From Candidatus Angelobacter sp. Gp1-AA117 (GTDB lineage: Bacteria > Acidobacteriota > Terriglobia > Terriglobales > Acidobacteriaceae): a stretch of DNA of 40,307 nt. The stretch covers positions 1 through 40,307 of the forward strand of contig QHVI01000060.1 of the NCBI GenBank assembly GCA_003223515.1, written 5' to 3'. The first letter of the stretch is position 1; every line of letters starts with the position of its first letter. A program made the translations under genes and the position numbers. This document shows positions 4,547-38,735 of the stretch, one piece after another. The notes beneath the pieces are model-generated. The model did not search any database, was not told the origin of the DNA, and was given only the letters and a program-made list of their open reading frames with translations.

Positions 4547-4803
4547 GCAATACTGTTCACTTAAACAATACCGAATGTGGATGGAACTTGCGATATGTGG
4601 ATGGACCTGCGATGCTCCAGCGCCGTAGGCGCGAAAAGAAGTTAGCCCAGCGCGTACCGGGCCCCCAGCAGCCGCCGCTCTTGCGGTTGTTGGGGTGGTT
4701 AAGCGCTGGGAAATCAAAGCAGAAACAGAGACAAGCCCCGTACGGGCGGCACAGCTATGTTGTGACCGACCAGATTCTTCTTGTCTTAAGTGAACAGTAT
4801 TGC
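4547..4803. mobile_element. MITE-like element with perfect 18-bp terminal inverted repeats
   Basis: GCAATACTGTTCACTTAA at 4547-4564 and its exact reverse complement at 4786-4803 bound a 257-bp non-coding element. Inside are two 19-bp near-copies (about 4572-4590 and 4591-4609) and the multi-hairpin core (4621-4747). There is no transposase, so it would have to move in trans. If the true ends are CTGTTCACTTAA, both sides are flanked by TA, the target duplication of IS630/mariner-type elements, and the empty site would read GCAATATTGC; this family assignment is inference. Confidence 0.75.
4621..4747 (+). repeat. Multi-hairpin structured repeat, copy A
   Basis: Hairpin 1: CGCC-GTA-GGCG (4621-4631). 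Hairpin 2: CCCAGCGC (4646-4653) with GCGCTGGG (4703-4710), enclosing a 13-bp inner stem (4663-4675 with 4683-4695, loop 4676-4682). Hairpin 3: GCCCCGTACGGGC (4735-4747). Copy B at 38607-38735 has the same order, spacing and GTA loops but different stem bases. Short reading frames through it look spurious. Confidence 0.85.
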
Positions 4804-4805
4804 TG

Positions 4806-5102
4806 TTAGCTACTATAATAGTGCTCCGACCGCATGATTATAGGAGAATAATGGAACTCCTTCCTCGCCTTGATGTGATCGATTTCCATTGAATCCGAGT
4901 ACCTCGATGATTGGTTGCTTGATTCCAAGCAGACACTTCTTGCTCTAATCGGCCCGATCTCTTCTAGCGCGCGTTTGGTGCTGCCAGCACCGGGTGCCGC
5001 CCCGTTTGTTTGTGGAAGAGTCTCCTGTTGCTGCGGTTTGATTATCGTATGTAGAACCAGCAGGAACAACATAACAAGTAGGATTGGGCGGGCAGCATAC
5101 AC
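4806..5102 (-). CDS. Doubtful small membrane-anchored protein
   Basis: A 98-aa reading frame with one hydrophobic stretch near the N-terminus (PILLVMLFLLVLHTII, residues 6-21) followed by a polar, Ser/Glu-rich tail containing a MEIDHI motif. No family was recognised. The ribosome site before the ATG at 5102 is weak. Its stop lies 3 bp outside the MITE-like element. It may be a real signal-anchored protein or a remnant. The rest of 4804-5481 holds nothing else recognisable except the upstream region of the Kelch gene. Confidence 0.3.
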   Translation of the reverse strand: MYAARPILLVMLFLLVLHTIIKPQQQETLPQTNGAAPGAGSTKRALEEIGPIRARSVCLESSNQSSRYSDSMEIDHIKARKEFHYSPIIMRSEHYYSS

Positions 5103-5481
5103 GGCTAGTTCCGTGAATGCAAAAAGTTCATAAAAAATTCAGGAAAAGAATTGCGGGATTACGCAAAGCGCGGATTTTCTCGGGAAGGCTTGTTCACAAG
5201 TGCGAATTTTATAGGAACTAATTAATTATCCGTTAGAGGGTGTAACGCTTTCGTCGGATTTGTCACTAACCTGTAGAACCAAAATAAAGCGTAAAAACAG
5301 AGTCACCTACTTAAGCCAAAGCGATCAATTTTGACCGGCCATCACGCGAGAAGTAGTTTCACCTTTGCGCCATTGGAATTCAGATTGAAAACTCTTAAGT
5401 AAATTGACAGCCATACGGCAGTCCAACGGCTACGCCATCTGTAGCTTCTCCGCGTTCCAACATCTCAAGGAAGGAAATAAG

Positions 5482-7296
5482 ATGAATCGAACAACCGAAC
5501 CAGCACGCCGAATCAAAAGCATCGCCGCTTCAACGGCAGGTGTTGTCCTTCTCTGCATTGCGCTTTTTGCTTCTGATCAAGCCTTGGCGCAGTCGCTGAA
5601 TTGGACCCAGCTTTCCCCGACCGGTGGGCCACCCGCAGCCCGAATATCACCGACAGCGGTGATGGATTCTTCGAATAACATGATCGTTTTTGGAGGATTT
5701 CCGGAGGGAGCATTTGGCCTTCCGCCTTTGTTTAATGACGTTTGGGTTTTATCGAATGCGGACGGAAGCGGCGTGGCTTCTACTTGGACGCAGCTCACGC
5801 CTCCAGGCGCAGCACCTGCAGGCCGTGGTTTTCACAGTGCTGTCTACGCGTCCCTTACCAACAGCATGATCGTTTTTGGAGGCGATCTCAGTGTTGGCAA
5901 CTGCTTCGATGAGACTAATGATGTATGGGTGCTGGCCCATGCCAATGGGACGGGAGGAACACCCGCTTGGACACAGCTTTCTTCCCAGGGGATACCCCCA
6001 ACGGTACGCGATTTTCACACTGCCGTTTACGATGGAGAGAACAATCGCATGATTGTCTTCGGCGGACGTCTCGAATGCTCTAGCGCTAATGCTGAAGTTT
6101 GGGTGCTGGCCAACGCCAATGGGGTGGGAGGAACGCCCATATGGGCTCAGCTTTCTCCCGGGGCTGGTGCCGCCCCTGTACCCCGCGCCGGTCATTCGGC
6201 TGTCTACGATTCCAGTAACAACCGTATGATTATTTTCGGAGGTGGGGCAGACGCCGGTTTTCTAAATGACGTGTGGGTACTTACCAATGCAAACGGTCTC
6301 GCAGGAGCGCCGACTTGGATTCAACTAACACCTACTGGCCCCCTGCCTACTGTCAGAGCTTCTCACTCCGCGATCTATGACCCCGCTGCTAACACGATGA
6401 CCATTTTTGGAGGAAGTGCCAATATTGTTCCCATGAATGAGGTGTGGGTACTCACCAACGCCAATGGCCTTGGGGGAACGCCAACTTGGACGCAATTGCA
6501 GCCAACTGGAGGGCCGCCCATCCCGCGCGATCTTCACTCTGCCGTCTTCAACTCGTCATCTGACCGGATGACCATTTTCGGAGGTGCCGATTCTTCTGCT
6601 CTAGGGCTTAACGACACTTGGGTATTAGCTGGTGCATTGACTAACAGACCAGCGGTTAATCTGTCGCCAGGTGCGCTCACTTTCGCCAATCAGGTTATTG
6701 GTAATACAAGTCCAGGGCAGAGCATTACGCTCACCAATAGCGGAACGGGAACGCTGACGATTGCCAGTATTGCAATTACAGGAGATTTCAGCCAAGCCAG
6801 TAACACCTGCACCAGCCCCATTGGTACAGAGGCAAGTTGCTCCGTGGATATTACATTTACTCCCAATACCTTGGGTCTGAGAGTCGGTAATCTGTCCATT
6901 ACTGACAATGCTGCGGGGAGCCCACAGACTATCTCGTTGACAGGCGCAGGAATTGCCAACATTTGTCCTCTGTATGATCAGACGCGAGCCCTTCGCAGTG
7001 GCGCGACGTTCCCGATCAAGCTTGAACTTTGTGATGCAAATGGCAATGACATCTCATCTCCTTCTATTGTGGTACACGCCACGGGACTTGTTGCGACCTC
7101 AGGCTTTTCCGGTCCTGTAGACGATTCTGGAAACGCCAATCCTGATAACGATTTTCGCTTTGACAGCACACTTGGTTCCACAGGTGGCTACATTTTCAAT
7201 CTGAGCACAAAAGGGGTGGCATCAGGCACGTATGCTCTGCAGTTCACCGCAGGAAATGACCCTATGATGCACTCGGTCACTTTTGGAGTGAAATAA
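5482..7296 (+). CDS. Secreted Kelch-repeat protein with choice-of-anchor D and PxKF domains
   Basis: A 604-aa exported protein. A signal peptide ends near LAQS. Six Kelch-type repeats follow, each with an IVFGG/TIFGG strand, a (N)DVWVL strand and a WTQL turn, enough for one beta-propeller. Next is an ASPM/SPD-2/Hydin-like beta-sandwich (GALTFANQVIGNTS, LTNSGTGTLTI), then a C-terminal PxKF-type domain (TFPIKLELCDANGN, GTYALQF). Such proteins are surface or extracellular and probably bind glycans or proteins; no enzyme residues are visible. ATG at 5482 is set by the signal peptide and by AAGGAAGGAA just upstream. Transcribed alone; a weak terminator follows. Confidence 0.85.
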   Translation: MNRTTEPARRIKSIAASTAGVVLLCIALFASDQALAQSLNWTQLSPTGGPPAARISPTAVMDSSNNMIVFGGFPEGAFGLPPLFNDVWVLSNADGSGVASTWTQLTPPGAAPAGRGFHSAVYASLTNSMIVFGGDLSVGNCFDETNDVWVLAHANGTGGTPAWTQLSSQGIPPTVRDFHTAVYDGENNRMIVFGGRLECSSANAEVWVLANANGVGGTPIWAQLSPGAGAAPVPRAGHSAVYDSSNNRMIIFGGGADAGFLNDVWVLTNANGLAGAPTWIQLTPTGPLPTVRASHSAIYDPAANTMTIFGGSANIVPMNEVWVLTNANGLGGTPTWTQLQPTGGPPIPRDLHSAVFNSSSDRMTIFGGADSSALGLNDTWVLAGALTNRPAVNLSPGALTFANQVIGNTSPGQSITLTNSGTGTLTIASIAITGDFSQASNTCTSPIGTEASCSVDITFTPNTLGLRVGNLSITDNAAGSPQTISLTGAGIANICPLYDQTRALRSGATFPIKLELCDANGNDISSPSIVVHATGLVATSGFSGPVDDSGNANPDNDFRFDSTLGSTGGYIFNLSTKGVASGTYALQFTAGNDPMMHSVTFGVK

Positions 7297-7346
7297 AGTT
7301 CAAGGCATCAGCGAGAAAAGCTTGCGAACTTGCCGGGCGGGTGTAA

Positions 7347-7377
7347 AAAGGGCACGTCAACTAATGATGTGTCCTTT
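7347..7377 (+). terminator. Weak terminator-like hairpin after the Kelch gene
   Basis: AAAGGGCAC (7347-7355) pairs with GTGTCCTTT (7369-7377) with one G-U, followed by CCGTTTT. It lies 50 bp after the Kelch stop. The remaining gap to the FeS-NrfD gene (7378-7681) shows no recognisable RNA motif or repeat. Confidence 0.45.
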
Positions 7378-7681
7378 CCGTTTTATCGCGGAATTGATTC
7401 CTGGAGATTTAGGCAGCGGCCAAGCTGCGACTAGAAATGGGTCTGCGACGGTTGAATAGCAGAAGACAGTGCGAGCAGCAAGCAAGCAGAATCCGACCCT
7501 AAGCAACAGGCTAGGGAGGTTCTAAGTTTCTGCTCCGCCAAGTACCTTTCAAATTTCCTGCTTTCATGCGGTCAGAGCACTAGTGCCTCCGTCAGCTCAC
7601 AGCGTCAGTTTTCCTTATACGGCGGTCGCGGAATCCGATCACGTGCGATTCTCCGATCCTGTTAAGATAGCCGTCTACCTC

Positions 7682-9208
7682 ATGCGCTACGGCTTCGTCA
7701 TAGACCAGGACCGATGTATTGGGTGTCACGCCTGTACGGTGGCGTGCAAAGAGGAACACCAGGTGCCGATTGGCGTCTTCCGCACCTGGGTCAAGTACGT
7801 GGAGAAGGGCGAGTTCCCCCACACCAGCCGCCACTTTGGCGTGATGCGATGTAACCACTGCGACTCCGCCCCCTGCATCGAGATTTGTCCCACCCACGCC
7901 CTTTACCGCCGCTCTGATGGAATCGTAGATTTTGACAACCAGCGATGTATTGGCTGTAAAAGCTGCATGCAGGCCTGCCCTTACGACGCCCTCTATATCG
8001 ATCCCAACACCAACACCGCCGCCAAATGTAACTTCTGTGCCCACCGCGTGGAAAACAATCTGGAACCTGCCTGTGTGATTGTCTGTCCTACGCAGGCCAT
8101 CATCGCCGGTGATCTCGATAACCCTGTCAGCAACGCCAGCCGGATCGTGGCTACAGAAAAGGTTTCCGTGCGCAAACCGGAGAAGGGAACCGAGCCTAAA
8201 CTTTTCTATAAAGGGATTGAAGGCGATCTGCTCCAGCCCACACGCCTGTCACGCCAGAACACCTTTGTCTTCGCCGAGCAGCGCGATGAACGCCCGGTGC
8301 AGCCATTTGATCCGGCAGTTACACGCGAGGTCTACGATGTGGCCCATCCTGCACCCTGGGGCTGGAAGATTGCCGCCTATCTGTGGACCAAGTCCATTGC
8401 CGCCGGGGTGTTGATGGTTCCGGCATTGCATTCCTTAATTGATCGGCATTCCTTGCAGCAGGTTGTTTTCACCATTGTCAGTCCATGGATCGCTTTGGTG
8501 GCACTGGCCGTCACCATGGCCTTGTTGGTATTTGATTTGAAGCGGCCGGACCGTTTTCACTATCTTCTGCTCAAACCCAATTTCCGCTCCTGGCTGGTGC
8601 TGGGAGCATACATCCTGATGGGTTATGGGATATGTGCTTTGGCATGGCTCTGGATGGGGTTTTCCAGCGGAGCGGTTCCGGCTCCATTGGCTATCGTGAC
8701 TACCATATTTGCCATTGGAACAGCTTGTTACTCCACGTTTCTGTTCGCTCAAGCCAAAGGGCGCGAACTCTGGCGCGGCAAAGCTTTCTTCTGCTGGCAT
8801 CTTTTCATTCAGGCACTGCTCGCCGGAGGTGCAGTCATTATCATTCTGCAACAGATGATCCCGTCGGGCGTAATGACAGATACACTTTGGTTCAGAGGCG
8901 GCCTGATTGATTCAGTCAGTGTGTTTGGACAAATACTGCTCCTGAACCTCATCACTTTATTGATTGAAATATTGATACCGCGCAAGAATCAGGAAAAGCA
9001 ACTGGCGATTCGCTCACTTACATACGGAAAGTTTGCAGGTCGTTTCTGGATTTCGGTTGTGTTTCTGGGTGTGCTTTGCCCTTTATTTCTGCCGCGATCG
9101 CTGTTGTCTAGGTTTGCTGAAATCGTCATAGCCCTACTCGCACTCTACGGATTGTGGTGGTTTGAACTGTTGTGGGTGAAAGCAGGACAGGTTGTTCCGT
9201 TAAGTTAA
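7682..9208 (+). CDS. Fused four-cluster ferredoxin and NrfD-type quinone-reacting membrane subunit
   Basis: A 508-aa fusion. Residues 1-200 are a DmsB/NrfC-like electron-transfer protein with 16 cysteines in four sets (12, 15, 18, 22; 57, 60, 65, 69; 89, 92, 95, 99; 116, 119, 131, 135), enough for four [4Fe-4S] clusters. From about residue 248 to the end, repeated hydrophobic helices form an NrfD/PsrC-like membrane domain that would exchange electrons with quinone. NrfC and NrfD are usually separate proteins. ATG at 7682 starts the typical MRYGFVIDQ sequence; an in-frame GTG at 7583 would add 33 unconvincing residues. It precedes the molybdoenzyme by 80 bp, and the two should form one complex. 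Confidence 0.88.
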   Translation: MRYGFVIDQDRCIGCHACTVACKEEHQVPIGVFRTWVKYVEKGEFPHTSRHFGVMRCNHCDSAPCIEICPTHALYRRSDGIVDFDNQRCIGCKSCMQACPYDALYIDPNTNTAAKCNFCAHRVENNLEPACVIVCPTQAIIAGDLDNPVSNASRIVATEKVSVRKPEKGTEPKLFYKGIEGDLLQPTRLSRQNTFVFAEQRDERPVQPFDPAVTREVYDVAHPAPWGWKIAAYLWTKSIAAGVLMVPALHSLIDRHSLQQVVFTIVSPWIALVALAVTMALLVFDLKRPDRFHYLLLKPNFRSWLVLGAYILMGYGICALAWLWMGFSSGAVPAPLAIVTTIFAIGTACYSTFLFAQAKGRELWRGKAFFCWHLFIQALLAGGAVIIILQQMIPSGVMTDTLWFRGGLIDSVSVFGQILLLNLITLLIEILIPRKNQEKQLAIRSLTYGKFAGRFWISVVFLGVLCPLFLPRSLLSRFAEIVIALLALYGLWWFELLWVKAGQVVPLS

Positions 9209-9288
9209 TTTCGACGCTCGAATCCTGACCGTTTTATTTATGCCGTCAATCAGCGATAAGGTTTGGTCTTTTAAATTTTGGCAATTCC

Positions 9289-12105
9289 ATGAAGCTTCCT
9301 CTAAATCCCGCCGCGCTCGAACTCGAACCACCCCAGGGTCTCTCCAGCTTCCCACCCTCTGACCGTTGGGACGACTGGAGCGAATATGACCCGCAGCAGT
9401 GGCCCCGGCGCGTGAAGAAGAGCTATTCACTCATTCCCACCATCTGCTTCAACTGCGAGGCCGCTTGCGGCCTGCTGGCCTACGTGGATAAAGAGAAGAT
9501 GCGGGTGCAGAAATTCGAGGGTAATCCTGCGCACCCCGGCAGCCGTGGACGCAACTGTGCCAAAGGCCCTGCCACGATCAATCAGGTCAATGATCCTGAG
9601 CGCATCCTTTATCCATTGCGCCGCACCGGCAAACGAGGCGAAGGGAAGTGGGAGCGGGTCACCTGGGACGAAGTCCTGGATGATTTGGCTGCGCGCATCC
9701 GCCTTGCTCTTCAGGAGGGACGCAAGAACGAGATCATGTATCACGTTGGCCGTCCCGGACATGAACTCATTTATAACCAGCGCGTGCTGCATGCCTGGGG
9801 AATCGATGGCCACAACAGCCATACCAATGTCTGCTCGGCTGGGGCGCGCACTGGATATGCCTTCTGGCAGGGGTTGGACCGTCCTTCTCCTGATTACGCC
9901 AATGCACGCTTCATCCTGCTGCTGAGTTCGCATCTGGAAGCGGGACATTATTTCAATCCTCATGCCCAGCGCATCATCGATGGCAAGGCCAGCGGCGCGA
10001 AGATTTGCGTCTTCGATACCCGGCTTTCCAATACTGCTTCCAAAGCCGATTACTGGCTCTCGCCCTGGCCGGGCAGCGAGGCGGCCATTTTACTGGCCAT
10101 GTGCAACGTGCTGCTGTACGAGAACCTTTTCAACCACCAGTTCGTGCGCCGCTGGGTGAACTGGGATGAGTATCTGCGCTGCGAGTATCCGGAGCGTCCG
10201 CAGACCTTTGAAGTGTTTGTTGAAGTCTTGAAGGCAAACTATTCCAGTTACACTCCGGAATTCGCCGCCCGGGAATCAGGCGTGGAGCCGCAGTTGATCG
10301 TGGAAGTAGCGCGTGAAATCGGCCGCGCCGGCTCAGCAGTAGCCACCCATGTGTGGCGCAACGCTGCCGCAGGCAATCTTGGCGGATGGCAGGTCTCCCG
10401 CGCCCTGGAATTTCTCACCGTGCTCGTGGGCGCTATAGATACTGTAGGCGGCACGGCCCCCAGCGGCTGGAACAAATACATTCCCGCTCCACCCATGATG
10501 CCGCCTGCGCCCAATGCCTGGAACGAGATGATGTGGGCGCGTGAGTATCCGCTGGCCTTCTTTGAGATGAGTTTTCTCCTGCCCCACTTCCTGAAGGAAG
10601 GGCGGGGCAAGCTGTCCGTCTACTTCAGCCGTGTTTACAACCCGGTGTGGACTAATCCTGATGGTTTGAGCTGGATTGAAACTCTCACCGACGAGAGCAA
10701 AGTGGAGCGCCATGCCTGCCTCACTCCTACCTGGAGCGAGACTGCCTGGTTCGCCGATTATGTTTTGCCCATGGGACACGCCTCCGAGCGGCACGACCTC
10801 ATGAGCCAGGAAACCCATGCCGCGCGCTGGATCGGCTTTCGCCAGCCGGTGCTGAGGGTCGCACTGGAGAAGCAGGGACGGGAATTCAACTCCACTTATG
10901 AGGCGCACCGCCAGGCCGGACTAGGCGAGGTCTGGGAAGAAGATGAGTTCTGGATCGAACTTTCCTGGCGCGTCGATCCTGATGGCTCGCTCGGTATCCG
11001 CAAGTACTTCGAATCGCCTTACCATCCTGGTCAGAAGTTGAAGATCCGCGAGTACTACCGCTGGATTTTCGAGAACAGCGTCCCCGGTCTGCCCCAGGCT
11101 GCCGCAAAAGAAGGGCTCACTCCCTATGACTACATGCGCAAGTACGGTGCCTTTCTGGTTCAAGAAAATGTTTATGGCACTCACGAAAAGCAACTGAAAC
11201 CAGAAGAGTTAAAAGGCAGCTCGGTTGATCAGGCCACAAAAATTGTCAGTGGCGGCGGCGCATCCCTGGGTGTGGAAATTGACGGACAGGTGTATGCCGG
11301 ATTTCCCACGCCTTCCCGCAAATTGGAGTTCTACTCGCGCACACTGAAAGAATGGAAGTGGCCCGAGTATGCCATCCCCACATATATAAAGAGCCACGTT
11401 CATCGCGACAACATCGATGTCGGCAAGGGCGAGATGCTCCTGCTGCCTACCTTCCGCCTGCCGACCTTGATTCATAGCCGCTCCGGCAATGCCAAGTGGC
11501 TCTACGAGATTTCCCACAAGAACCCGGTCTGGATGCATGCGAGTGATGCCGAACGGCTGGGCGTGACCACTGGCGGCTTGGTCAAGATACAGAGCGCGAT
11601 TGGTTACTTTGTTGACCGTGTATGGGTGACGGAGGGAATTCGTCCCGGTGTAGTGGCCTGCTCGCATCATTTGGGCCGTTGGCGGTTGCAGGAAGATTCC
11701 GGCGGCGAGCGCTGGTCAACCGCGTTGGTGGATCTGAAGCAGATTCAGCCGGGACAGTGGATGATGCGCCAGATCCATGGCGTGCGTCCATTTGCCAGCA
11801 ATGACCCCGATTCCTCTCGCATTCACTGGGAAGATGCAGGCGTGCACCAGAACCTGATTTTTCCCGTGCAACCCGACCCCATCAGCGGACAGCACTGCTG
11901 GCACCAGAAGGTCACGGTAACCAGAGCCGGTGCTGAAGACCGCTACGGCGACATCTTTGTGGATACCAAGAAGGCCCACGAAGAATACCGCCACTGGCTG
12001 AAGTTGACCCGTCCCGCCCCCGGCCCCGACAACCTCCGCCGTCCTCTATGGCTCAATCGCGTCTACAGACCTGCAAAAGAAGCGTTCTACATCCCATCTG
12101 AATAA
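9289..12105 (+). CDS. Molybdopterin oxidoreductase catalytic subunit (DMSO reductase superfamily)
   Basis: A 938-aa bis-MGD enzyme. An N-terminal [4Fe-4S] site is formed by C53, C56, C60 and C90 (CFNCEAAC, then RNCAKG). Cys182 in HTNVCSAG sits where the molybdenum ligand is expected, so Cys-ligated relatives (polysulfide, thiosulfate or tetrathionate reductases, SoeA, formate dehydrogenases) are closer than Ser-ligated DMSO reductase. The C-terminal part (about 700 on) is the cofactor-binding beta-barrel domain. No Tat signal precedes the cluster, which points to the cytosolic face, as in SoeABC. Substrate and direction are unknown. ATG at 9289 has no clear ribosome site. Operon with the FeS-NrfD fusion. 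Confidence 0.88.
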   Translation: MKLPLNPAALELEPPQGLSSFPPSDRWDDWSEYDPQQWPRRVKKSYSLIPTICFNCEAACGLLAYVDKEKMRVQKFEGNPAHPGSRGRNCAKGPATINQVNDPERILYPLRRTGKRGEGKWERVTWDEVLDDLAARIRLALQEGRKNEIMYHVGRPGHELIYNQRVLHAWGIDGHNSHTNVCSAGARTGYAFWQGLDRPSPDYANARFILLLSSHLEAGHYFNPHAQRIIDGKASGAKICVFDTRLSNTASKADYWLSPWPGSEAAILLAMCNVLLYENLFNHQFVRRWVNWDEYLRCEYPERPQTFEVFVEVLKANYSSYTPEFAARESGVEPQLIVEVAREIGRAGSAVATHVWRNAAAGNLGGWQVSRALEFLTVLVGAIDTVGGTAPSGWNKYIPAPPMMPPAPNAWNEMMWAREYPLAFFEMSFLLPHFLKEGRGKLSVYFSRVYNPVWTNPDGLSWIETLTDESKVERHACLTPTWSETAWFADYVLPMGHASERHDLMSQETHAARWIGFRQPVLRVALEKQGREFNSTYEAHRQAGLGEVWEEDEFWIELSWRVDPDGSLGIRKYFESPYHPGQKLKIREYYRWIFENSVPGLPQAAAKEGLTPYDYMRKYGAFLVQENVYGTHEKQLKPEELKGSSVDQATKIVSGGGASLGVEIDGQVYAGFPTPSRKLEFYSRTLKEWKWPEYAIPTYIKSHVHRDNIDVGKGEMLLLPTFRLPTLIHSRSGNAKWLYEISHKNPVWMHASDAERLGVTTGGLVKIQSAIGYFVDRVWVTEGIRPGVVACSHHLGRWRLQEDSGGERWSTALVDLKQIQPGQWMMRQIHGVRPFASNDPDSSRIHWEDAGVHQNLIFPVQPDPISGQHCWHQKVTVTRAGAEDRYGDIFVDTKKAHEEYRHWLKLTRPAPGPDNLRRPLWLNRVYRPAKEAFYIPSE

Positions 12106-12118
12106 TGTGCTTCCTTTA

Positions 12119-12263: not shown

Positions 12264-12352
12264 GAAATACACATAAACTTACTTTTGTTACCTCTGCGTC
12301 CTTTGCGTCCTCTGCTGTAAAAGGTTTTGGTTGTGGCTCGCTGTGGGTTAAT
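12264..12352 (+). repeat. R1 repeat copy
   Basis: AATACACATAAACTTACTTT leader, core units at 12292-12300, 12301-12309 and 12310-12318, then the GGTTGTGGCTCGC tail, shortened compared with other copies. Confidence 0.8.
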
Positions 12353-31709: not shown

Positions 31710-31780
31710 ACCTTATTTGTACCGGAGACAGACTTTCTTGCTTTATTCAATTATTTATTGCTATTCAACTATTTCTTGCC

Positions 31781-31857
31781 CTGTCATTCTGAGCTGCGCG
31801 CCTGAAGTGTGGTTGCTTCATAAGAATCTTTGGCGCGCAGCGAAGATTTCTGAGGAA
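31781..31857 (+). repeat. R2 hairpin repeat, copy 2
   Basis: CTGTCATTCTGA at the left, TGAGGAAT at the right. GCTGCGCGCC (31793-31802) pairs perfectly with GGCGCGCAGC (31832-31841). It sits in the thiD/TPR gap, which otherwise shows nothing. Confidence 0.7.
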
Positions 31858-31973
31858 TATTTCCTTTACCATGCAGTATCAGGGAGTTCTCACGAGAATT
31901 GTCGTTGAAACTCCGGCATGCTGAGCCGAATCACTTCGGGACCGTTCGCTGTGCCTTTCCTCGTGCACCACTC

Positions 31974-33266
31974 TTACACCGGCGGTTGCTGCCCCTGTGT
32001 AGACGGCGTTTGCGGCTGCTGGTTCTGCTCGTCTGGTGGAGTCGTTTGCTGCTGCTGTTGTCCACCGCGATCGATCAATTGTGGTCTTTGCTCCTGTTGC
32101 TCCGGAGGAGCAGAATTCTGGTCCGGCTGGTTCAAAAGATCGTTCTGCTGCGTCGTTTTCTTCGGCGCAGGTTTATCGACAACAATGCGATTGTCGCGGG
32201 TGCGCAAAGCGGGTTTGCCGCCGGTGCGCCGTCTTACCTCCGCATCGGCTTGTAAGCGTGCATCCACCAGATCGCTGCTCTGTTGTGCTACCTGGCCCAA
32301 CTGCCGGCCTTCCAGTTCCGGCTTGGTGGAAACTGCCACCTTGTTGGCTGCACGTTCAGCGCTGTGGGCGCGGTCATAGAAGGCTTGCGCCGTCTCGCGG
32401 TCGCCCTCCATCTCTGCCAGGTAACCCATATTGTTCAACGCGAAGGCATTTTCCGGATCAAGCTTGAAAGCCTGCTGGAAATAGTCACGTGCTGCCTTGC
32501 GGTCATTGCGATTCATGGCCGAGACACCCCGCAGGTTGAGGCGCGCCACCTTTGCCCCATTGTCTTCTGATCTTTCCAGCTCTTTACGGGTCTTATCAGC
32601 GTTGCGTGCGGCAACTTCACTGATGGGGCGTCCGCGCCAATCCTTGTTGAGCGTGACCACCACAGCCTCACGCGAGCCGCTCATCGCCGACTGGTTGTAA
32701 TAGCGTACAGCGTCTTCCAGTTCGCCTTCTTTTTCTTTGGCAAAACCTATGTTGTTTAGCGTAAATGGATTACGCGGATCGAGCTTCAATGCCTTCTGCA
32801 GGATCAGGTCGGCCTCAGGCGCGCGGTCTTTGGCCAGCAGGGTGATGGCCTCGCTATTCATCTCGTTTACTTTGAGGGGACCTTCCTCTGTATGTCCCGC
32901 AATTTTGGCTACGGCCTGCCCCTTGGCTTCGTCGGAAGTGGATTTATCGATCACTGCATCGGAGGTGTTGGCTTGGGCCTGATCGTAGTAACGCTGGGCG
33001 CGGTCCATGTCACCTTCAAGCTCTGAAACATACCCGAGATTATTGAGGGTGAAAGGATCGTTCGTGTCGATCAGGTACGCCTTATAGAAGAGTCTCTTGG
33101 CCTTCTCAATATTTTGCTTTTTGAGAGCGTCTACGCCGTCCCGGTTGAGTTGCTGGACGGGAGTGAACTTGCTTTTCTTCGGCAACGGGATGCGCAATTC
33201 CTGGGCCTGAAGACCTGAAAACGAGAGCAGGCACAACGCCAGTATGGGGAACAATATACGACGCAT
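31974..33266 (-). CDS. Secreted TPR-repeat protein with Gln/Pro-rich tail
   Basis: A 430-aa exported protein. After a signal peptide (cut near LQAQ), three homologous TPR blocks carry NPFTLNN-type helices (DPFTLNNLGY, NPFTLNNIGF, NAFALNNMGY), each preceded by a KA(K/L) loading helix and followed by a D-A-V/A-Q-x-Y-Y helix. The last 80 residues are Gln/Pro-rich and disordered. TPRs bind protein partners, here presumably in the periplasm. ATG at 33266 is chosen for the signal peptide. It is divergent from the DUF5666-like gene, with 143 bp between starts. Confidence 0.8.
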   Translation of the reverse strand: MRRILFPILALCLLSFSGLQAQELRIPLPKKSKFTPVQQLNRDGVDALKKQNIEKAKRLFYKAYLIDTNDPFTLNNLGYVSELEGDMDRAQRYYDQAQANTSDAVIDKSTSDEAKGQAVAKIAGHTEEGPLKVNEMNSEAITLLAKDRAPEADLILQKALKLDPRNPFTLNNIGFAKEKEGELEDAVRYYNQSAMSGSREAVVVTLNKDWRGRPISEVAARNADKTRKELERSEDNGAKVARLNLRGVSAMNRNDRKAARDYFQQAFKLDPENAFALNNMGYLAEMEGDRETAQAFYDRAHSAERAANKVAVSTKPELEGRQLGQVAQQSSDLVDARLQADAEVRRRTGGKPALRTRDNRIVVDKPAPKKTTQQNDLLNQPDQNSAPPEQQEQRPQLIDRGGQQQQQTTPPDEQNQQPQTPSTQGQQPPV

Positions 33267-33409
33267 GAGTTGTCTTAATCCTCGCAGGGCAGAAGCTCTG
33301 CTTTGGAGTTGGATGGCTTTTGTCCTCATTAGGTTGGGCTTCTTGTTTCCTTAGCATTGCTTGCCATCTAAGCTGCTGCTCTTCGCATCCAACTGCTTGG
33401 TTAGGACTT

Positions 33410-34579
33410 ATGAAGCGTTCCCCACTTTTCATCAGCTCATTCCTATTGCTTTCCGCTGTACTGGTGTGTGCGCAGACCAATCCCGCAACACCGAAACCTG
33501 GTTCAGGAGTGCCGGAAACTCCGGTCCCGAGTACACAAACGAGCACTCCGGCCCCGAATGCCGCTTCCACCAATGCCGCGCCGGCCACGCAGACTCCCCC
33601 AAATACACCCGCCGTGGCCCCTACTCCGGCCCAGGCTCCGAGTGCGCCTTCCGGCTCCAAAGCGACTCCGCCGCCGGGAATCACCTCTGCGCCGCCGGGA
33701 ACGGCAGCCAAGCCGGTTGAACCGTCAGAGAACGTCGAACCGATGCAGCCGAAGACTGAAATCTTCGACAGCTCCGCTACCTCTTCAGGAGTGCTGACCA
33801 CCGACGGACACGACCCCGTTCTCGATCCTCCGCCATTGCCGGGCGGTCTGACTACTCTGGTAGGCGGAACAGTGTCTGGCGTGGATCACATCCGCAATCG
33901 CATGACCATGGTGGTATTCGGCGGCGGACACTGGAAGATCGGCTTTGACGAGCGTACCCACATCTTCCGCAATGGAGCGGAGACCACGCAGCTTGCCATT
34001 AAGAAAGGCGAGCGGGTTTACGTGGATACCATGCTCGACAAAAAGAACCACGAAATATTTGCCCGTAACATCCGGCTGGGCGTGGCTGCTCTCCCCGCAA
34101 ATGCTGATGGGCAGATTGTGGATATTGACCTGAAGCACCAGCGGGTCACGCTGCGCGATCAGATTGATTCTGTGCCGGTGCATTTCAGCATAGACAATCA
34201 GACCAAGTTCAATCACGGAAGCAACTCTGCTTCACTGGGCGAGTTAAAGCCCGGTGCGCTTGTGCATGTGAAGTTTTCCCCTGAAAGCCCCAACCGCGGA
34301 CTGGCGCGCGAGATTTCGATCATTGCTGCGCCCGGCTCGCAATTTACTTATGTAGGCAAGATCACGCATCTTGATCTGCGTAAGGGAGTGATGGCTATTC
34401 AGAACGTGATCGATGACAAGAACTACGAGGTTAACTTCAACCCCAATCAACTCAAGGATGTGAGAGACCAACTGGCCGTAGGGACTGACGTGAGGATCGT
34501 GGCCGTATTCGAAGGCACGCGCTACACGGCACAGTCGATCATAGTGACCAAAGAGCCGGAACCCTCAGAAAAGCAATAA
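33410..34579 (+). CDS. Secreted DUF5666-like protein
   Basis: A 389-aa protein with a signal peptide (cut near VCAQ), a Pro/Thr/Ala-rich linker (about 25-125) and tandem beta-barrel modules of the DUF5666 type: each has a G-x-V/I-x-x-I-D/D-H-x-x-x-x-x-V start, a T-x-F/I-x-N/G segment, and a KPGALVHV / KKGERVYV-type strand followed by an A-R-x-I element. Three modules can be seen at roughly 145-225, 226-305 and 310-380. Function is unknown; the fold suggests an envelope-located binding protein. ATG at 33410. Confidence 0.75.
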   Translation: MKRSPLFISSFLLLSAVLVCAQTNPATPKPGSGVPETPVPSTQTSTPAPNAASTNAAPATQTPPNTPAVAPTPAQAPSAPSGSKATPPPGITSAPPGTAAKPVEPSENVEPMQPKTEIFDSSATSSGVLTTDGHDPVLDPPPLPGGLTTLVGGTVSGVDHIRNRMTMVVFGGGHWKIGFDERTHIFRNGAETTQLAIKKGERVYVDTMLDKKNHEIFARNIRLGVAALPANADGQIVDIDLKHQRVTLRDQIDSVPVHFSIDNQTKFNHGSNSASLGELKPGALVHVKFSPESPNRGLAREISIIAAPGSQFTYVGKITHLDLRKGVMAIQNVIDDKNYEVNFNPNQLKDVRDQLAVGTDVRIVAVFEGTRYTAQSIIVTKEPEPSEKQ

Positions 34580-34637
34580 TTTGGAAACCCGCTCAGAGCA
34601 TTTTAGGTTGAGGTGTAGGGAATTCACTCACCCCCCT

Positions 34638-34693
34638 TGTCATTCCGACCGCAGTCCGACCGACGTAGGAGGGAGGACGGAGTGGAGGAACCC
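34638..34693 (+). repeat. R2-like repeat, degenerate copy 3
   Basis: TTGTCATTCCGACCG at the left and GGAGTGGAGGAACC at the right frame a poorly paired middle. The framing words match the other R2 copies. The rest of 34580-34839 shows nothing further. Confidence 0.55.
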
Positions 34694-34839
34694 CGAGGAT
34701 GTCTGCTCCACCATGCTCTTACAAGGTGTTCCCACGGAGCTGTTGAAAGCGCACGCATGATGCTTGCAAGGTAATGAGCGGAGCGAAAGAACCGGCATGC
34801 AACTCGGCAATCCCTACATTATTTTCGAAATACGCTCTA

Positions 34840-35037
34840 CTAGTCGATTCTTCGGGTAGAACGCAGGAACAGCAAGATTGCTGTTCCTGCGAGGATGATC
34901 CATAAGCCCGCGACGAGACAATAATTCCACTTCCATCCTGAATGGGCGGCTTTGGAGAGCACATACCAACTTACCCACACATAAAACGCCAGGATCACTA
35001 TCAGTCCTGTAATTTCCCAGCTCTTATGCGGCATCAT
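34840..35037 (-). CDS. Small two-helix membrane protein
   Basis: A 65-aa protein with two hydrophobic helices (GLIVILAFYVWVSWYVL, and LVAGLWIILAGTAILLFL) and a basic C-terminus. No family recognised. The ATG at 35037 is followed by a second ATG; GAAGACGAG precedes them. Upstream lies an R1-like core (35087-35113), downstream the R2 remnant. Confidence 0.55.
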   Translation of the reverse strand: MMPHKSWEITGLIVILAFYVWVSWYVLSKAAHSGWKWNYCLVAGLWIILAGTAILLFLRSTRRID

Positions 35038-35079
35038 CTCGTCTTCATGCTAAACCAGAGCATGAACGCAAAGAGCGCA

Positions 35080-35125
35080 TCAATTTCTCTGCGCTCTCTG
35101 CGTGCTCTGCGGTGAATCTTTGCGT
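35080..35125 (+). repeat. R1 repeat core
   Basis: Units at 35087-35095, 35096-35104 and 35105-35113, followed by GAATCTTTGCG, without the usual tail. It sits between two minus-strand genes. Confidence 0.75.
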
Positions 35126-35133
35126 TTGTCTTG

Positions 35134-35511
35134 TTACTTTGATATTCGCTCGGCGATGATGATCGTGTAGCCATCTGGATCGAGGAATGAGAACTCGCGC
35201 ATTCCGTAAAACATCTCCTGCACCTGCATCACGATCCTGGCATTATGCTTCTGCACTCGTTGATGAATTTCATCCAGTCCTTCAGCCTCGATGTACATGG
35301 TGCAGGTGCCGCCCAGTTGGGCGTGAACCCCTGCCACCTCGCGCTGATTCAGGAATATCTCCACGTTGCCGCTGGCCACTGACGCGAATACATAAGGCGG
35401 CTGTTCCGGTACGTTGAGTTCCTGCTTGAAACCGAGGACGTCCTGATAGAACTTCAGGCTGGTGCTTACGTCTTCTACGATGAGATTTGGCGTGAGTTTT
35501 TTGAATTCCAT
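35134..35511 (-). CDS. VOC-family (glyoxalase/bleomycin-resistance fold) protein
   Basis: A 125-aa protein of two beta-alpha-beta-beta-beta modules, as in glyoxalase I and bleomycin-resistance proteins. Visible: LIVEDVSTSLKFYQDVLGF, VFASVASGNVEIFL, MYIEAEGLDEIHQRV and FLDPDGYTIIIAE, the last carrying the usual metal Glu. A metal-dependent lyase, dioxygenase or binding protein is possible; no neighbour suggests the substrate. A strong GAGGAGG site precedes the ATG at 35511. Confidence 0.85.
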   Translation of the reverse strand: MEFKKLTPNLIVEDVSTSLKFYQDVLGFKQELNVPEQPPYVFASVASGNVEIFLNQREVAGVHAQLGGTCTMYIEAEGLDEIHQRVQKHNARIVMQVQEMFYGMREFSFLDPDGYTIIIAERISK

Positions 35512-35744
35512 TGTTCCTCCTCAATTGAAGTGGGCGAGCTTGTAATGTAGGAAACCAGAGACATTTCCTCCATCCACGATCTCTGCGAGGAAGAACGTGA
35601 GTAGAGTCCCAATGGAACTCGCGAGGTACGCCAGAGGATAGCACAAGCTGTAAAGTCAGCCAACAATTGCAGGATCAGGAATTGATGGCTGATCAGGAGG
35701 ATCGACGATCTGCGTTTTCTTCGTTTTTACCCAATCTTCTGATT

Positions 35745-36222
35745 CGCGTAAATTCGCGCTATTCGCGGCTATTTCCCAATCCCAGAGCTTCCTCAGTGAC
35801 CTTTGTGAAACCTCCGTGTCCTTTGTGGTTAGGTTTTGGTTGTGGCCCTGCTGCGTTGTGCCCTTTGTATTACAGCGTTCGAATTCTTCTCTGCTTGCGA
35901 CGAATTCTCCTGCGCAGCCAAACGCGGGTGCGGTCTATAGGGAGCAACACACCGCCAAATTCAATACACATAACTACTTTTGCTTCCTCTGCGTCCTTTG
36001 CGTCCTCTGCATTGCTAACAATCAAATTCGTCTCAAGCCGCGAAGAATTCTGCTTGGGTAGCTAAATGCTAATCCCATTTCTGATTCGTGAGATTCGCGT
36101 CATTGGCGGCTTACTTGCCTTCCTCTGCGCTCTCTGCGTTCTCTGCGGTTAAAGCCGTTTGGTTGTGGCTCGCCACGCTGCGGTAAAAGGTTTTGCTTGT
36201 GGGCTCACTACGCTGCGGTGAA
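35745..36222 (+). repeat. Large composite R1 repeat block
   Basis: The longest repeat block. Order: AATTCGCG phrase; CCTTTGTGGTTAGGTTTTGG tail variant; a module from 35889 shared with 22181 onward; core 35987-36013; CTAACAATCAAATTCG module; a GATTCGTGAGATTCGCG phrase; core 36123-36149; TAAA; tail GTTGTGGCTCGCCACGCTGC. It fills most of 35512-36283; 35512-35744 shows nothing else. Bases 35991-36146 are identical to 40010-40165. Confidence 0.85.
35991..36146 (+). repeat. 156-bp perfect duplication, copy 1
   Basis: Every base equals 40010-40165, direct orientation. Identity begins at GCGTCCTTTG and ends at CTCTGC within R1 cores at both edges. Confidence 0.9.
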
Positions 36223-36226
36223 ACAC

Positions 36227-36258
36227 GAAAGGCGGCGCACTGCGCTACGCCGCCTTTC
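36227..36258. terminator. Strong hairpin terminator of the minus-strand zinc-ribbon gene
   Basis: GAAAGGCGGCG (36227-36237) pairs with CGCCGCCTTTC (36248-36258), an 11-bp perfect stem with a 10-nt loop, 26 bp beyond the stop at 36284. On the minus strand the tail is CCTTTCGTGTTTC; the other direction ends TTTCTTTCT. Confidence 0.75.
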
Positions 36259-36283
36259 TTTCTGCCCGGATAGAGGGGAGAGA

Positions 36284-36718
36284 TTATTTGTTTTTCTTGA
36301 GAAGAACGCCTAAGGCAAAGATTGCCGTAGCTGCCAGCAGCCATTCAATCCGCCAGATCTGCACGGCCTGCCAATCCAGCAACGTGGTTGCTGTATACAG
36401 GAACCCTGTGACCAGTGCTGCAATCACACAGGCCAAACCCAGAAACAGGGCCACAAGAGATGCATTGGTCTGTCCCAGTGCATCACGCAAGGAAGTGTAG
36501 TCAAACCACTCCCGGACACCCTGGCCGCTCGGGTTGGCCAGACCTGCATTGCGGTCGGCTCCGCAAACGTGGCAAAAGCGTGAACCCATGACAAAATCCG
36601 TGCCGCACCGCTCACATACCTGACCTGTTGCTTCGTTCACAAAAGCTTCCTGCCGCGGCTGAACCGCTGGCTTCCAGAACTCCTGCCTTTCTTCGTAGTT
36701 TCGCGCTATCTCTGCCAT
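36284..36718 (-). CDS. Zinc-ribbon protein with two membrane helices
   Basis: A 144-aa protein. A cytosolic N-terminal zinc ribbon (C35-E-R-C38, C49-H-V-C52, of the CxRCG...FCxxCG type) precedes two hydrophobic helices (about 83-105 and 120-138) and a KKNK end. No family was recognised; such proteins may anchor a partner at the membrane. ATG at 36718 was chosen; a TTG at 36763 would add 15 residues. A strong hairpin terminator follows. Confidence 0.7.
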   Translation of the reverse strand: MAEIARNYEERQEFWKPAVQPRQEAFVNEATGQVCERCGTDFVMGSRFCHVCGADRNAGLANPSGQGVREWFDYTSLRDALGQTNASLVALFLGLACVIAALVTGFLYTATTLLDWQAVQIWRIEWLLAATAIFALGVLLKKNK

Positions 36719-36829
36719 AACTGTAAGGACCTTTGTCTTAAATCTACGCACACTGAATGCCAAAGTTCAGTGCCTCATAAGTGTGTGATAATGAGGGGAT
36801 TAGGCTGTTTCCCTCGTTCGGAAAGGACA

Positions 36830-36949
36830 ATGAGTAGAAAGAATTACGTTGTAAAAGCTTCTGCAAGAGTGCCCGGCTGGTGTTCCGGCCGTTGCTGGCA
36901 AAAGATTGAAAAGGGGGAGGTATGGGTACCGCTGAAGAAGGGGAGGTAA
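36830..36949 (+). CDS. Possible 39-aa small protein
   Basis: An ATG preceded by GGAAAGGACA, a good ribosome site, opens 39 codons ending in TAA at 36947. The peptide is basic (MSRKNYVVKASARVPGW, then C-S-G-R-C, and KGEVWVPLKKGR at the end) with a CxxxC pair. It lies between the minus-strand zinc-ribbon and HTH genes. No family is known; coding is plausible but not proven. Confidence 0.4.
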   Translation: MSRKNYVVKASARVPGWCSGRCWQKIEKGEVWVPLKKGR

Positions 36950-36958
36950 GTGAGGGCC

Positions 36959-37189
36959 TTAATTTCTCCTCGGCATGCGGATCACTTTGGGGTTCTCTTC
37001 GCTGTTTCTCCAAAAGCGGAGCAACACCAGATCAGCTTCGCAGAATGTGAGTTCTGTGGGACGAATGCTGCCGTCGTTGAAGATATGTTCGTCGAGCAGG
37101 GAGTGAAGGCGCAGGATAGAAATGTTCAGATACCCGGCAGCCTCCGCTTCCGTATAAAATTCCTGTTCCGGCTTAAGTGGTTTATTCAT
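36959..37189 (-). CDS. Small helix-turn-helix (excisionase/MerR-like) protein
   Basis: A 76-aa protein with FYTEAEAAGYLNISILRLHSLLDE (read in parts: FYTEAEAAGYLNIS, then ILRLHSLLDE), the winged-helix start of MerR-like or excisionase-type DNA-binding domains, where the aligned helix recognises DNA. The C-terminus is basic (MPRRN). ATG at 37189 with weak GGAAAC upstream. Divergent from the TPR gene, so it could act on the shared promoter region; that is inference. No phage genes are near. Confidence 0.65.
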   Translation of the reverse strand: MNKPLKPEQEFYTEAEAAGYLNISILRLHSLLDEHIFNDGSIRPTELTFCEADLVLLRFWRNSEENPKVIRMPRRN

Positions 37190-37273
37190 AGTGTGTTTCC
37201 CTATTCGGGTGTGATGGTTTTACTGCTTCTACTCGGGAAGCGAAATCGGGTAAACTTCCCCATAGCAGCCCTC

Positions 37274-38500
37274 ATGAGACCTTACCTGTCTACTTTCCTT
37301 GCCTGCCTCCAGTCAGGCCTGTTCGTTATACTCCTGATTATTGCCTTAACGGTAAACCCGCTGTGGGCGGGCGACGCTGCCAAAGTGCCCACCTTCGACT
37401 CTCTCACCCAGAGCGGTTTGGAGCACTATTACAGCCTTGAGTATGACCAGGCCTTCAAGGAATTCCAGAAGGCGATAGACCTTAAACCTGATGATCCTAA
37501 AGCAGTTAACCATTTGCTCGAGGCCGTGCTTTTCAGTGAGCTTTACCGGCATGATGCCCTCGATACCAGCCTTTATACCCAGCAGAGTTTTCTAAGTAGT
37601 AAACAAATTACTCTCGATCCCAAGGTCAAACAGCAGATCAAAGACCTCGCCGATAAGGCGCTTTCCCTCTCAGAGAAGCGCCTTAAGTCTAATCCTAAAG
37701 ACGTAGAGGCCCTATATGCCCGTGGGGTTACCAAAGGTTTGCACTCCACGTACTTGGCTCTGGTGGAGCACGCCTGGTTTGCCTCCCTGCGCAACGCTTT
37801 AGGCTCCCGCAGCGATCATGAAGAGGTGCTGAAACTCCAACCCAGCTTTGTGGATGCCAGGACCGTAGTTGGCATTCATAACTACGTGGTGGCCAGCCTG
37901 CCGGTGGCCGTCAAGATCATGGCTGGAATTGGAGGCATTCATGGGGATAAGAAAAAGGGGCTGGATTACCTGGCCGAAGCCGGGAAGGCTGGAGGGGAAT
38001 CCAGCGTGGATGCCAACGTGGCTCTCGGCCTGTTCTTGCGCCGTGAAAGCCGTTTTCAGGACGCCATGGGCGTGGTGCATCACCTGGTTGAGCAGCACCC
38101 CCACAACTTCCTTTTCGCCCTGGAAGCGGCCAACCTGCTCAAGGATTCCGGCAAGAAACCCGAGGCAGTTGCGGCTTATCGCAATGTGGTCGAGAGCTGC
38201 AAGCAGAACAAATTCCCATCCGCTCACGTGGAGATGGCCTATTTCAGCTTGGCAGGTGTCCTCCGCGCACAGGGCCAGTATGCTGAATCCATCCAGGCCT
38301 ACGAATCAGCCGGGAACGCCACCACCACCAATAATGAACTGCGGCAACGTGCGCTGGTGGCCGCAGGCGAGGTTTCAGACCTGCTCACCAAACGGGATGA
38401 CGCTGTGAAGGAATACCGCGCCGCCATCGCCCTCGACGGCAGCAGCCCTGAGGCCGACTTGGCCCGCAAATACCTCAATAAACCCTATCGCGAGCATTAG
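37274..38500 (+). CDS. TPR-repeat protein with N-terminal signal anchor
   Basis: A 408-aa protein. The N-terminus has a hydrophobic segment (SGLFVILLIIALTVNPLWAG) ending in a likely cleavage site. TPR-like pairs follow: YYSLEYDQAFKEFQKAIDLKPDDPKA (in parts: YYSLEYDQAFKEF, KAIDLKPDD), ALYARGVTKG, VHHLVEQHPHNF, LKDSGKKPEAVAAYRNV, LRAQGQYAESIQAYES and KRDDAVKEYRAAI. A scaffold or adaptor role in the envelope is likely. ATG at 37274 was chosen by the signal; the frame is open from 36950. Divergent from the HTH gene. Confidence 0.75.
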   Translation: MRPYLSTFLACLQSGLFVILLIIALTVNPLWAGDAAKVPTFDSLTQSGLEHYYSLEYDQAFKEFQKAIDLKPDDPKAVNHLLEAVLFSELYRHDALDTSLYTQQSFLSSKQITLDPKVKQQIKDLADKALSLSEKRLKSNPKDVEALYARGVTKGLHSTYLALVEHAWFASLRNALGSRSDHEEVLKLQPSFVDARTVVGIHNYVVASLPVAVKIMAGIGGIHGDKKKGLDYLAEAGKAGGESSVDANVALGLFLRRESRFQDAMGVVHHLVEQHPHNFLFALEAANLLKDSGKKPEAVAAYRNVVESCKQNKFPSAHVEMAYFSLAGVLRAQGQYAESIQAYESAGNATTTNNELRQRALVAAGEVSDLLTKRDDAVKEYRAAIALDGSSPEADLARKYLNKPYREH

Positions 38501-38606
38501 GGAACCGCGCACGCAACGGCTGCGTATATATCTTAGTGAGGCCGATTGGCTGGTGGCTTTTAGCTCTTACTTTTGTTCGCCTGGTTTCGTCGAAGTTGCT
38601 CGGCAG

Positions 38607-38735
38607 CCCGCGTAGCGGGTGAAACAGGTTCGCCCGGTGCGTACCGGGGTTCCCGGCAACCGCCGCTTTTGCGGCTGCTGGGGTAGATAAGCGCCGGGAA
38701 CTAAAGCCAATGATAGAACCAAGCCCCGTAGGGGC
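38607..38735 (+). repeat. Multi-hairpin structured repeat, copy B
   Basis: Same layout as 4621-4747. Hairpin 1: CCCGC-GTA-GCGGG (38607-38619). Hairpin 2: CCCGGTGC (38633-38640) with GCGCCGGG (38691-38698), enclosing an inner stem (38652-38663 with 38671-38682, loop CGCTTTT). Hairpin 3: GCCCC-GTA-GGGGC (38723-38735). No terminal inverted repeats flank it. It occupies most of the gap 38501-38873. Confidence 0.85.

Follow-up and report, generated by a model that had tools for sequence, protein, structure and literature searches.

Two copies of a three-hairpin repeat in a Candidatus Angelobacter genome as probable relics of the inverted ends of a subclass 1.2-type Y1 transposase gene

Introduction

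The closest described relatives of the element reported here, a three-hairpin repeat present as copies A and B in a 40,307-nucleotide stretch of the acidobacterium Candidatus Angelobacter sp. Gp1-AA117 (assembly GCA_003223515.1, contig QHVI01000060.1; the whole stretch is called the window below), are found among the DNA hairpins associated with Y1 (HUH, single-tyrosine) transposases. As described in the accessible text of the classification of Quentin 2018 (PMC6006769), TnpA-Y1 proteins of subclass 1.2 carry the signature Y---Q--HH, are generally without typical terminal IS200 structures and come mostly from Cyanobacteria and Bacteroidetes; those of class 3, from Planctomycetes and Acidobacteria, have the Y-motif YV[VI]xEQ and are accompanied by atypical structures with the foot CnGA, about 600 of which are dispersed in Solibacter usitatus. 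IS608 has 'guide' tetranucleotides 5' of its palindromes, and TnpA-REP, the Escherichia coli transposase of the repetitive extragenic palindromes (REP), recognises one strand of REP in single-stranded form, depends on GTAG and cuts at CT; for another system the foot is described as contributing to the choice between CT and CA (all according to the available account in PMC8266576). Titles and abstracts of the literature, most subscription papers, supplements and figures being outside reach, gave no description of a three-hairpin repeat or of subclass 1.2 ends. We consider it likely that A and B derive from the terminal repeat of a subclass 1.2-type Y1 transposase, of which they would be dispersed, probably non-autonomous copies that spread as folded single-stranded DNA and persist here as relics.

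Results

Copies A and B and their fold

The initial annotation had placed two copies of one multi-hairpin element at 4621-4747 and 38607-38735; the elements are present there and are homologous. Both follow the same plan on the + strand, namely hairpin 1 (H1), a linker, hairpin 2 (H2), a linker of about 25 nt, hairpin 3 (H3) and a tail, with a first linker that ends in TTAG in A and TTCG in B and tails that read GGCACA and GACACA, respectively. An ungapped comparison over 95 nt shows 77% identity, and a search with A and its edges (4601-4770) recovered 31 places in the genome at E ≤ 0.01, the query itself included, copy B among them at E = 4e-18, so that the likeness lies far above chance. The stem changes reported in the annotation are likewise present in the sequence: the H2 stem CCCAGCGC/GCGCTGGG of A reads CCCGGTGC/GCGCCGGG in B, i.e., A-T becomes G-C and C-G becomes T-G, and the H1 stem changes on both sides (GCGCC/GGCGC vs. 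CCCGC/GCGGG). Both copies belong to the rarer long form of the repeat, which has an extra hairpin of about 13 bp inside the H2 loop; the common form has an H2 loop of about 4 bases and mostly measures 90-96 nt. An Rfam scan of the window found no family reaching its gathering score at either element, the sole match at that score in the window being a group II intron (RF00029, positions 90-175, + strand, 49.1 bits, threshold 40).

Single-copy folding compared with 200 shuffles gave z = -2.58 for A and -2.81 for B, with 0 and 2 shuffles, respectively, folding equally well. Two copies are insufficient to show covariation, and larger sets of 20 copies and 77 matches were used. Among the 20 copies, all from the window's genome, 93.9% of the cells are paired, cells with two-sided changes number 22 vs. 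6.5 in shuffled alignments and the covariation score is 0.194 vs. 0.080; none of 500 shuffles reaches any of these three measures, while the count of pairs is attained by 5 shuffles and that of pair types by 15. In the 77 matches from many genomes, whose alignment was fitted to the structure and therefore leans towards it, 98.2% of the cells are paired, two-sided changes are seen in 16 of 18 pairs and in 232 cells vs. 52.8 shuffled, and the score is 0.522 vs. 0.132; none of the five measures is equalled in 500 shuffles, and structures slid along the alignment score 0.02-0.06. Cells count sequences rather than events, the copies being related. A further set of 11 sequences covering H2 and the inner hairpin of the long form scored 0.189 vs. 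0.088 shuffled, with 0 of 500 shuffles reaching the percentage paired, the two-sided cells or the score, and 13 reaching each of the two other counts. The absence of significant covariation across many copies, which the initial annotation had named as grounds for abandoning its proposal, was thus not what we found; covariation is strong in both larger sets. From these matching changes in the stems it appears that the fold itself has been preserved.

The 20 copies also served to build a covariance model, R1, which gave 101 matches at E ≤ 0.1 in the window's genome (150 of 3344 first-look candidates scored). The architecture of the repeat is H1 - NTAG - H2 - H3; the three stems span about 92 nt, which rises to about 138 nt in the long form. 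A survey of 91 loci of this genome, in which 94 of 96 matches were read (one duplicate and one partial row being excluded), revealed several subfamilies, each with distinct H1, H2 and H3 sequences, and five clear long forms (A, B, L081, L089 and L074), besides two partial long copies (L006 and L008). L325 was considered as a sixth long match and rejected, as its extra length arises at another place. Across the phylum, taken to be Acidobacteriota because the best named protein matches come from Acidobacteriaceae, the repeat is present in 60 of 297 genomes, the window's included (R1, E ≤ 0.001), a lower bound since 14 candidates per genome were scored under stricter filters. Among 239 distinct matches outside the window's genome, TAG directly precedes H2 in 185 (GTAG proper in 44), G-R-C-A follows H3 in 104 and CA precedes H1 in 73; the unpaired foot and tail are conserved across matches (per-base table of 245 rows, 6 of them repeated).

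Within the window's genome, one subfamily with the H2 stem CCCACGTC/GACGTGGG comprises 13 near-identical copies (L268-L272, L275-L277, L279, L283, L284, L286 and L290), and because their closest flanks are nearly identical too, this subfamily appears to move as part of a larger unit. Several copies in the same genome, e.g., at L305 and L327, are adjoined by tracts rich in AGCTAG and AGCTAAAAGC.

The repeat brackets a transposase gene

In a first pass, a Pfam Y1_Tnp search of 20 repeat-bearing genomes gave a match in 18, and Y1 genes were seen beside repeats. Scanning 35 Y1 loci with R1 then showed many with a + repeat to the left of the gene and a - repeat to the right, an arrangement in which two copies lie tail to tail with the gene between them. 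Repeats also occur elsewhere in the genomes, either solitary or as tail-to-tail pairs without a gene between. For 22 aligned Y...Q..HH proteins of the phylum sample, a repeat lies within 200 nt on both sides of the gene in 13 and on one side in 4, i.e., 17 of 22 are flanked, and 5 have none; the corresponding figures for the genus are 24 of 29 loci flanked, 20 of them on both sides, with at least two loci common to both sets.

A repeat-blind sample was obtained by a protein-alignment search of genome contigs, from which the best 80 of at least 586 stretches were taken. These loci span Acidobacteriota, Planctomycetota, Verrucomicrobiota, Bacteroidota, Nitrospirae, Deltaproteobacteria, a chlamydia and others. 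R1 gave 140 matches in 60 of them, and an inward-oriented repeat was found within 200 nt upstream (+) in 37, downstream (-) in 40, on both sides in 29 and on either side in 48, the wrong orientation being seen at 5 and 8 loci. As a control, 26 other Y1 loci were examined, consisting of 20 lower-scoring ones from the same genomes, taken in order of E-value with L140 set aside, together with L124, L125, L140, L031, L032 and L034. No control locus has a repeat within 200 nt, distances being taken from the Pfam match, and R1 gave 5 matches in 3 of the 26; measured from the open reading frame (ORF), the nearest control repeats lie at 215 nt (L244, in inward orientation) and 227 nt (L256). A model-free test for inverted repeats placed 45 of the 80 loci above 30.5, the 99th percentile of mismatched partners, vs. 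3 of the 26 controls (L242 with 44, L250 with 34 and L032 with 35), all three without an R1 match; the inverted repeats around these control genes are perhaps of the TIRYT kind (see below). At many of the 80 loci this repeat thus forms the inverted ends of the subclass 1.2-type gene.

Over the 297 phylum genomes, the gene was found in 46 of the 60 that bear the repeat vs. 19 of the 237 without a repeat match, with at most 13 or 14 candidates per genome scored in these searches. The gene count is 65 genomes at E < 1e-25; it would be 70 at 1e-15, the five in between, among them the IS200 gene of the window's genome, having been set aside. Beyond H1, the flanks of 36 gene-bracketing pairs are hardly more alike than those of mismatched partners (mean 6.4 vs. 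5.8), only L166 exceeding the 99th percentile. The outer flanks beyond H1 are inverted in 3 of 15 tail-to-tail pairs (L104 with 26, L114 and L102 with 15 each, the 99th percentile being 10), and in L104 this outside inverted repeat looks better kept than the inner hairpins. Head-to-tail arrays of 4-5 repeats with a period near 86-100 nt were observed beside a transposase gene in L185 (1013-1483), L189 (631-954) and L230 (838-1207).

The partner protein, about 147 residues in length, belongs to the Y1 (HUH) superfamily. Two partner proteins match Pfam PF01797 (E = 4e-27 and 1e-20), and of the NCBIfam models only the IS200/IS605 model NF033573 scores above its cut-off, in all three proteins submitted; the REP transposase model NF047646, with a cut-off of 80, gave 28.6 and 32.5 bits in two of them and did not match the third. 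All 22 proteins of one alignment and all 42 of another share H-x-H, WQ, Y, Q and HH without exception (L126, L140 and L142 were excluded for a wrong frame or stops), and the signature Y-x3-Q-x2-HH occurs in a forward frame of 79 of the 80 loci, whereas it was seen near none of the 26 control genes. By this signature the protein is assigned to the subclass 1.2 type. A sequence search of the PDB returned ISDra2 and IS608. The AlphaFold model of the L154 protein (mean predicted local distance difference test 91.7) gave 30 Foldseek matches in the PDB at E ≤ 0.001, all transposase entries and mostly ISDra2 and IS608, the last of the 30 being the REP-bound REP transposase 4er8; according to the entry titles, IS608, ISDra2 and the REP transposase were solved in complex with DNA ends or hairpins.

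Congeners, carrier unit and further features

No subclass 1.2 gene was found in the window's genome at E ≤ 1e-25; the other 8 of the 9 genus genomes have 1-7 each. Matches at E ≤ 1 in the window's genome are an IS200-type gene, a fragment of one and two other Y1 genes, and no R1 match lies beside its Y1 genes L031, L032 and L034 or the fragments L033 and L035. The latter two, situated at contig ends, were considered as pieces of the absent gene and rejected, being fragments of an L031-like IS200-type gene. Because no subclass 1.2 gene was found, A and B look like orphaned, REP-like mobile repeats, the transposase presumably having been lost from this genome or lying within an assembly gap.

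The long form recurs beside the congeners' genes, some of the 29 being broken or cut. Five loci (L329, L347, L348, L338 and L354) have one short end and one long end resembling A or B; two of these have the long end downstream of the gene and three have it upstream, and L354 carries a broken gene. The long end of L329 is 70% identical to A over 138 nt, that of L347 is 70% identical to A and B over 136 and 126 nt, and that of L348 is 82% identical to B over 67 nt. H2 inserts of other sequence are seen in L335, L345, L349 and L356, in L349 at both ends, so that the pairing of one short with one long end does not hold throughout. Sequence on either side of copy B could be aligned with two congeners, G297 (9 nt facing 332 of the window) and G300 (about 80 facing about 380), and R1 found no repeat at that site in either; in the nine congener loci compared for this site it gave only one weak match (L261, 19.7 bits).

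Copy A is carried inside a unit of another family, resembling a miniature inverted-repeat transposable element (MITE) and separate from the three-hairpin element. Its end motif GCAATACTGTTCACTTAA has 39 copies in the genome at up to 2 mismatches vs. none for the reversed control. Such an end lies within 300 nt on at least one side of 14 of the 94 repeat copies of this genome, copy A included, and none lies within 300 nt of copy B. The interiors of complete units hold the three-hairpin repeat, or a single hairpin running from H1 to the H3 tail (C32 vs. C191), or unrelated sequence (C37, C153 and C90). The one-hairpin form is exactly H1 joined to the H3 tail; it may have arisen by slippage between identical H1 and H3 or through excision by the transposase. 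Members of the family that differ by the H1-to-H3 interval, with three hairpins or one fused hairpin, were observed at 4540-4810 of the window and in L018, L021, L023, L028 and L029. Coordinates are collected in Table 1.

Table 1. Features of copies A and B in the window
Feature	Position	Strand	Basis
MITE-like unit around copy A, terminal inverted repeats 4540-4564 and 4786-4810	4540-4810		Inverted repeat I1, 92% complementary
Copy A, whole element, long form	4617-4754	+	R1 match, 78.7 bits
Copy A, H1 (GCGCC-GTA-GGCGC)	4620-4632	+	Sequence; helix covaries across copies
Copy A, NTAG foot abutting H2, at the place of the REP GTAG foot	4642-4645	+	TAG before H2 in distinct matches elsewhere (185 of 239)
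Copy A, H2, stem 4646-4653 with 4703-4710, enclosing inner hairpin	4646-4710	+	Sequence; covariation
Copy A, inner hairpin in H2 loop, stem 4663-4675 with 4683-4695, mark of long form	4663-4695	+	Fold; covariation; similar insert in congener transposase-flanking copies
Copy A, H3, followed by tail	4735-4747	+	Sequence; tail composition over matches
Copy B, whole element, long form, outside the MITE-like unit of copy A	38605-38742	+	R1 match, 65.9 bits; sequence
Copy B, H1 (CCCGC-GTA-GCGGG)	38607-38619	+	Sequence
Copy B, foot before H2, departing from NTAG	38629-38632	+	Sequence
Copy B, H2, stem 38633-38640 with 38691-38698, enclosing inner hairpin	38633-38698	+	Sequence; alignment
Copy B, inner hairpin, stem 38651-38663 with 38671-38683	38651-38683	+	Sequence; covariation
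Copy B, H3 (GCCCC-GTA-GGGGC)	38723-38735	+	Sequence

Two further features of the window were observed. A second dispersed repeat, of the type TTCCTCTGCGTCCTTTGCGTCCTCTGCGGTTAA, has 11 copies in the 40 kb (e.g., 189-221, 12289-12321 and 36120-36152), 67-100% identical to the reference copy, and the ORF at 5404-7296 (+) contains internal repeats of NDVWVL type, spaced 171-183 bp and kelch-like by eye.

Discussion

From the arrangement described above we infer mobilisation as single-stranded DNA. With ends that are inverted copies of each other, a given strand carries the folded repeat on one side and the complementary sequence on the opposite side, as it does in REP pairs. The transposase would bind the repeat as folded single-stranded DNA, with H2 and its foot as the REP-like core being read and H1 and H3 as accessory hairpins. 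The catalytic tyrosine would cut near the ends of the element, where CA or CT are candidate cleavage sites, and copies may have spread in the manner thought for REP transposases; solitary copies and gene-less tail-to-tail pairs fit such spread in trans. The compensatory changes would then reflect the need to keep the hairpins in single-stranded DNA. The initial annotation had ascribed these changes either to selection for structure or to copying through a structured intermediate, a reading that our data support: the covariation underlying both is strong, and the repeat that brackets a Y1 (HUH) gene provides a candidate for the intermediate, but the data do not separate the two.

Covariation of this kind is also what a structured RNA would show, be it a cis-regulatory element, a terminator or a small RNA, repeated by chance and with its pairing kept at the RNA level. 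There is a weak orientation bias of the repeats with respect to neighbouring genes, 20 copies lying along and 9 opposed where both neighbours are on one strand, in a crude, ORF-based survey of the 94 copies that left 36 unclear; however, the same survey found 19 copies between convergent and 10 between divergent neighbours, and a single transcript across the bracketed transposase gene would contain the repeat on one side of the gene and the complementary sequence on the opposite side. As no Rfam family reaches threshold at the element and the minimum-energy RNA fold of copy B alone differs from the conserved three-hairpin fold, we regard an RNA as very improbable. Hairpin-templated repair could in turn keep the palindromes perfect, their arms changing together whatever their function and without selection. 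The proportion of paired cells in the 77 matches is very high even among weak ones, albeit in a structure-fitted alignment, and H1 and H3 are often identical, which would permit mutual conversion. Repair leaves unexplained why the order H1-NTAG-H2-H3 is fixed, why the unpaired foot and tail are conserved and why the repeat adjoins the transposase gene in many phyla, and it might act together with selection; as an explanation of its own it appears unlikely. Finally, other mobile elements, such as the TTAAGTGAACAGTATTG MITE, might carry the repeats as cargo, the place of the repeats beside Y1 genes being secondary. Copy A is among the 14 copies with a MITE end nearby, and about 13 copies of one subfamily have longer flanks in common, but the other 80 of the 94 copies, B included, are without a nearby MITE end, and near-gene copies are mostly inward-oriented in the 80 loci chosen by protein alone, which leaves this origin only a slight chance.

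Several observations weigh against our proposal that A and B are terminal repeats of a subclass 1.2-type transposase. At 32 of the 80 loci R1 matches nothing where a repeat is expected (direct comparison still reveals an inverted repeat at 13 of them), and R1, built from the window's genome, favours TTAG-like feet; the modelled L154 protein is encoded at a locus that itself lacks an R1 match in place, and the foot of copy B is TTCG instead of NTAG. The inward repeat of control L244 lies barely beyond the 200-nt limit, which lowered our confidence slightly. The co-occurrence of gene and repeat (Fisher p = 3e-26) was calculated ignoring phylogeny, and it includes 14 repeat-bearing genomes, the window's among them, without a detected gene and 19 with the gene without a repeat match. 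That the pairing of short and long ends is not a rule had the same slight effect on our confidence. The comparison at the site of copy B reveals absence and not a precise insertion, since 332 facing 9 nt is not a clean junction, and no insertion event was observed in these comparisons, made among congeners with one genome per species.

The wider proposal concerns an IS200-lineage subclass thought to be without typical ends: in many phyla it would act on the same conserved substrate, inverted and made of three hairpins, with compound recognition (H2 as REP-like core and two accessory hairpins); it would have adopted a REP-type life independently (one or a few genes that feed many dispersed repeats); and some copies would combine a short with a long end. 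To this we give an even chance. The repeat is a candidate DNA partner for a transposase subclass described as lacking typical insertion sequence ends, the activity of which is directly testable, and the proposal accounts for a frequent repeat of these genomes for which, in the window, no Rfam family scores above threshold.

Relation to described systems

The partner protein resembles subclass 1.2 as defined by Quentin 2018 in its Y---Q--HH signature, in a short core followed by a further C-terminal segment and in its low copy number (1-7 in 8 congeners). Unlike the subclass as far as described in PMC6006769, many loci here have three-hairpin inverted ends and they come from many phyla; the ends at 48 of the 80 loci are structures, though not of the IS200 kind. 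Class 3 TnpA, considered as partner and rejected, differs in the Y-motif, the proteins here having Y...Q..HH and not YV[VI]xEQ, and in the foot, which is NTAG and not CnGA. TIRYTs or TIRtrons (PMC3733652, 2013), also reported from Acidobacteria (K. versatilis) in the available part of that paper, are similar in that a Y1 gene has terminal inverted repeats (TIRs) that are also found elsewhere. They are set apart by subclass, since the 26 TIRYTs fall into subclasses 2.1, 2.2 and 2.5 and none into 1.2 in the accessible text of PMC6006769; a published TIR may nevertheless be identical with the repeat.

The transposase fold, the catalytic residues and the hairpins near the ends are shared with IS200/IS605 elements such as ISDra2 and IS608. 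The ends of IS200/IS605 elements (IS608) are not known to be mutual inverted repeats, whereas the ends here are inverted repeats of each other. With REP, BIME and REPIN and their TnpA-REP (REP-associated tyrosine transposase, RAYT) of the E. coli type, the repeat has in common dispersed hairpins that are solitary or in inverted pairs and, in relatives, a Y1 gene bracketed by repeats. The xTAG foot 5' of the stem is likewise common to both, a GTAG-like tetranucleotide being present in the repeat family with TTAG in A and TTCG in B. In contrast to REP, a single palindrome of 20-40 nt, there are three hairpins in about 92 nt, and unlike the class 2 TnpA-REP the partner scores below the REP transposase cut-off and above that of IS200. 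Because it is neither a single palindrome nor served by a class 2 RAYT, the repeat is set apart as a variant of REP, and together with its transposase it may represent a second, separate case of a transposase with dispersed hairpins, comparable to the REP system of E. coli.

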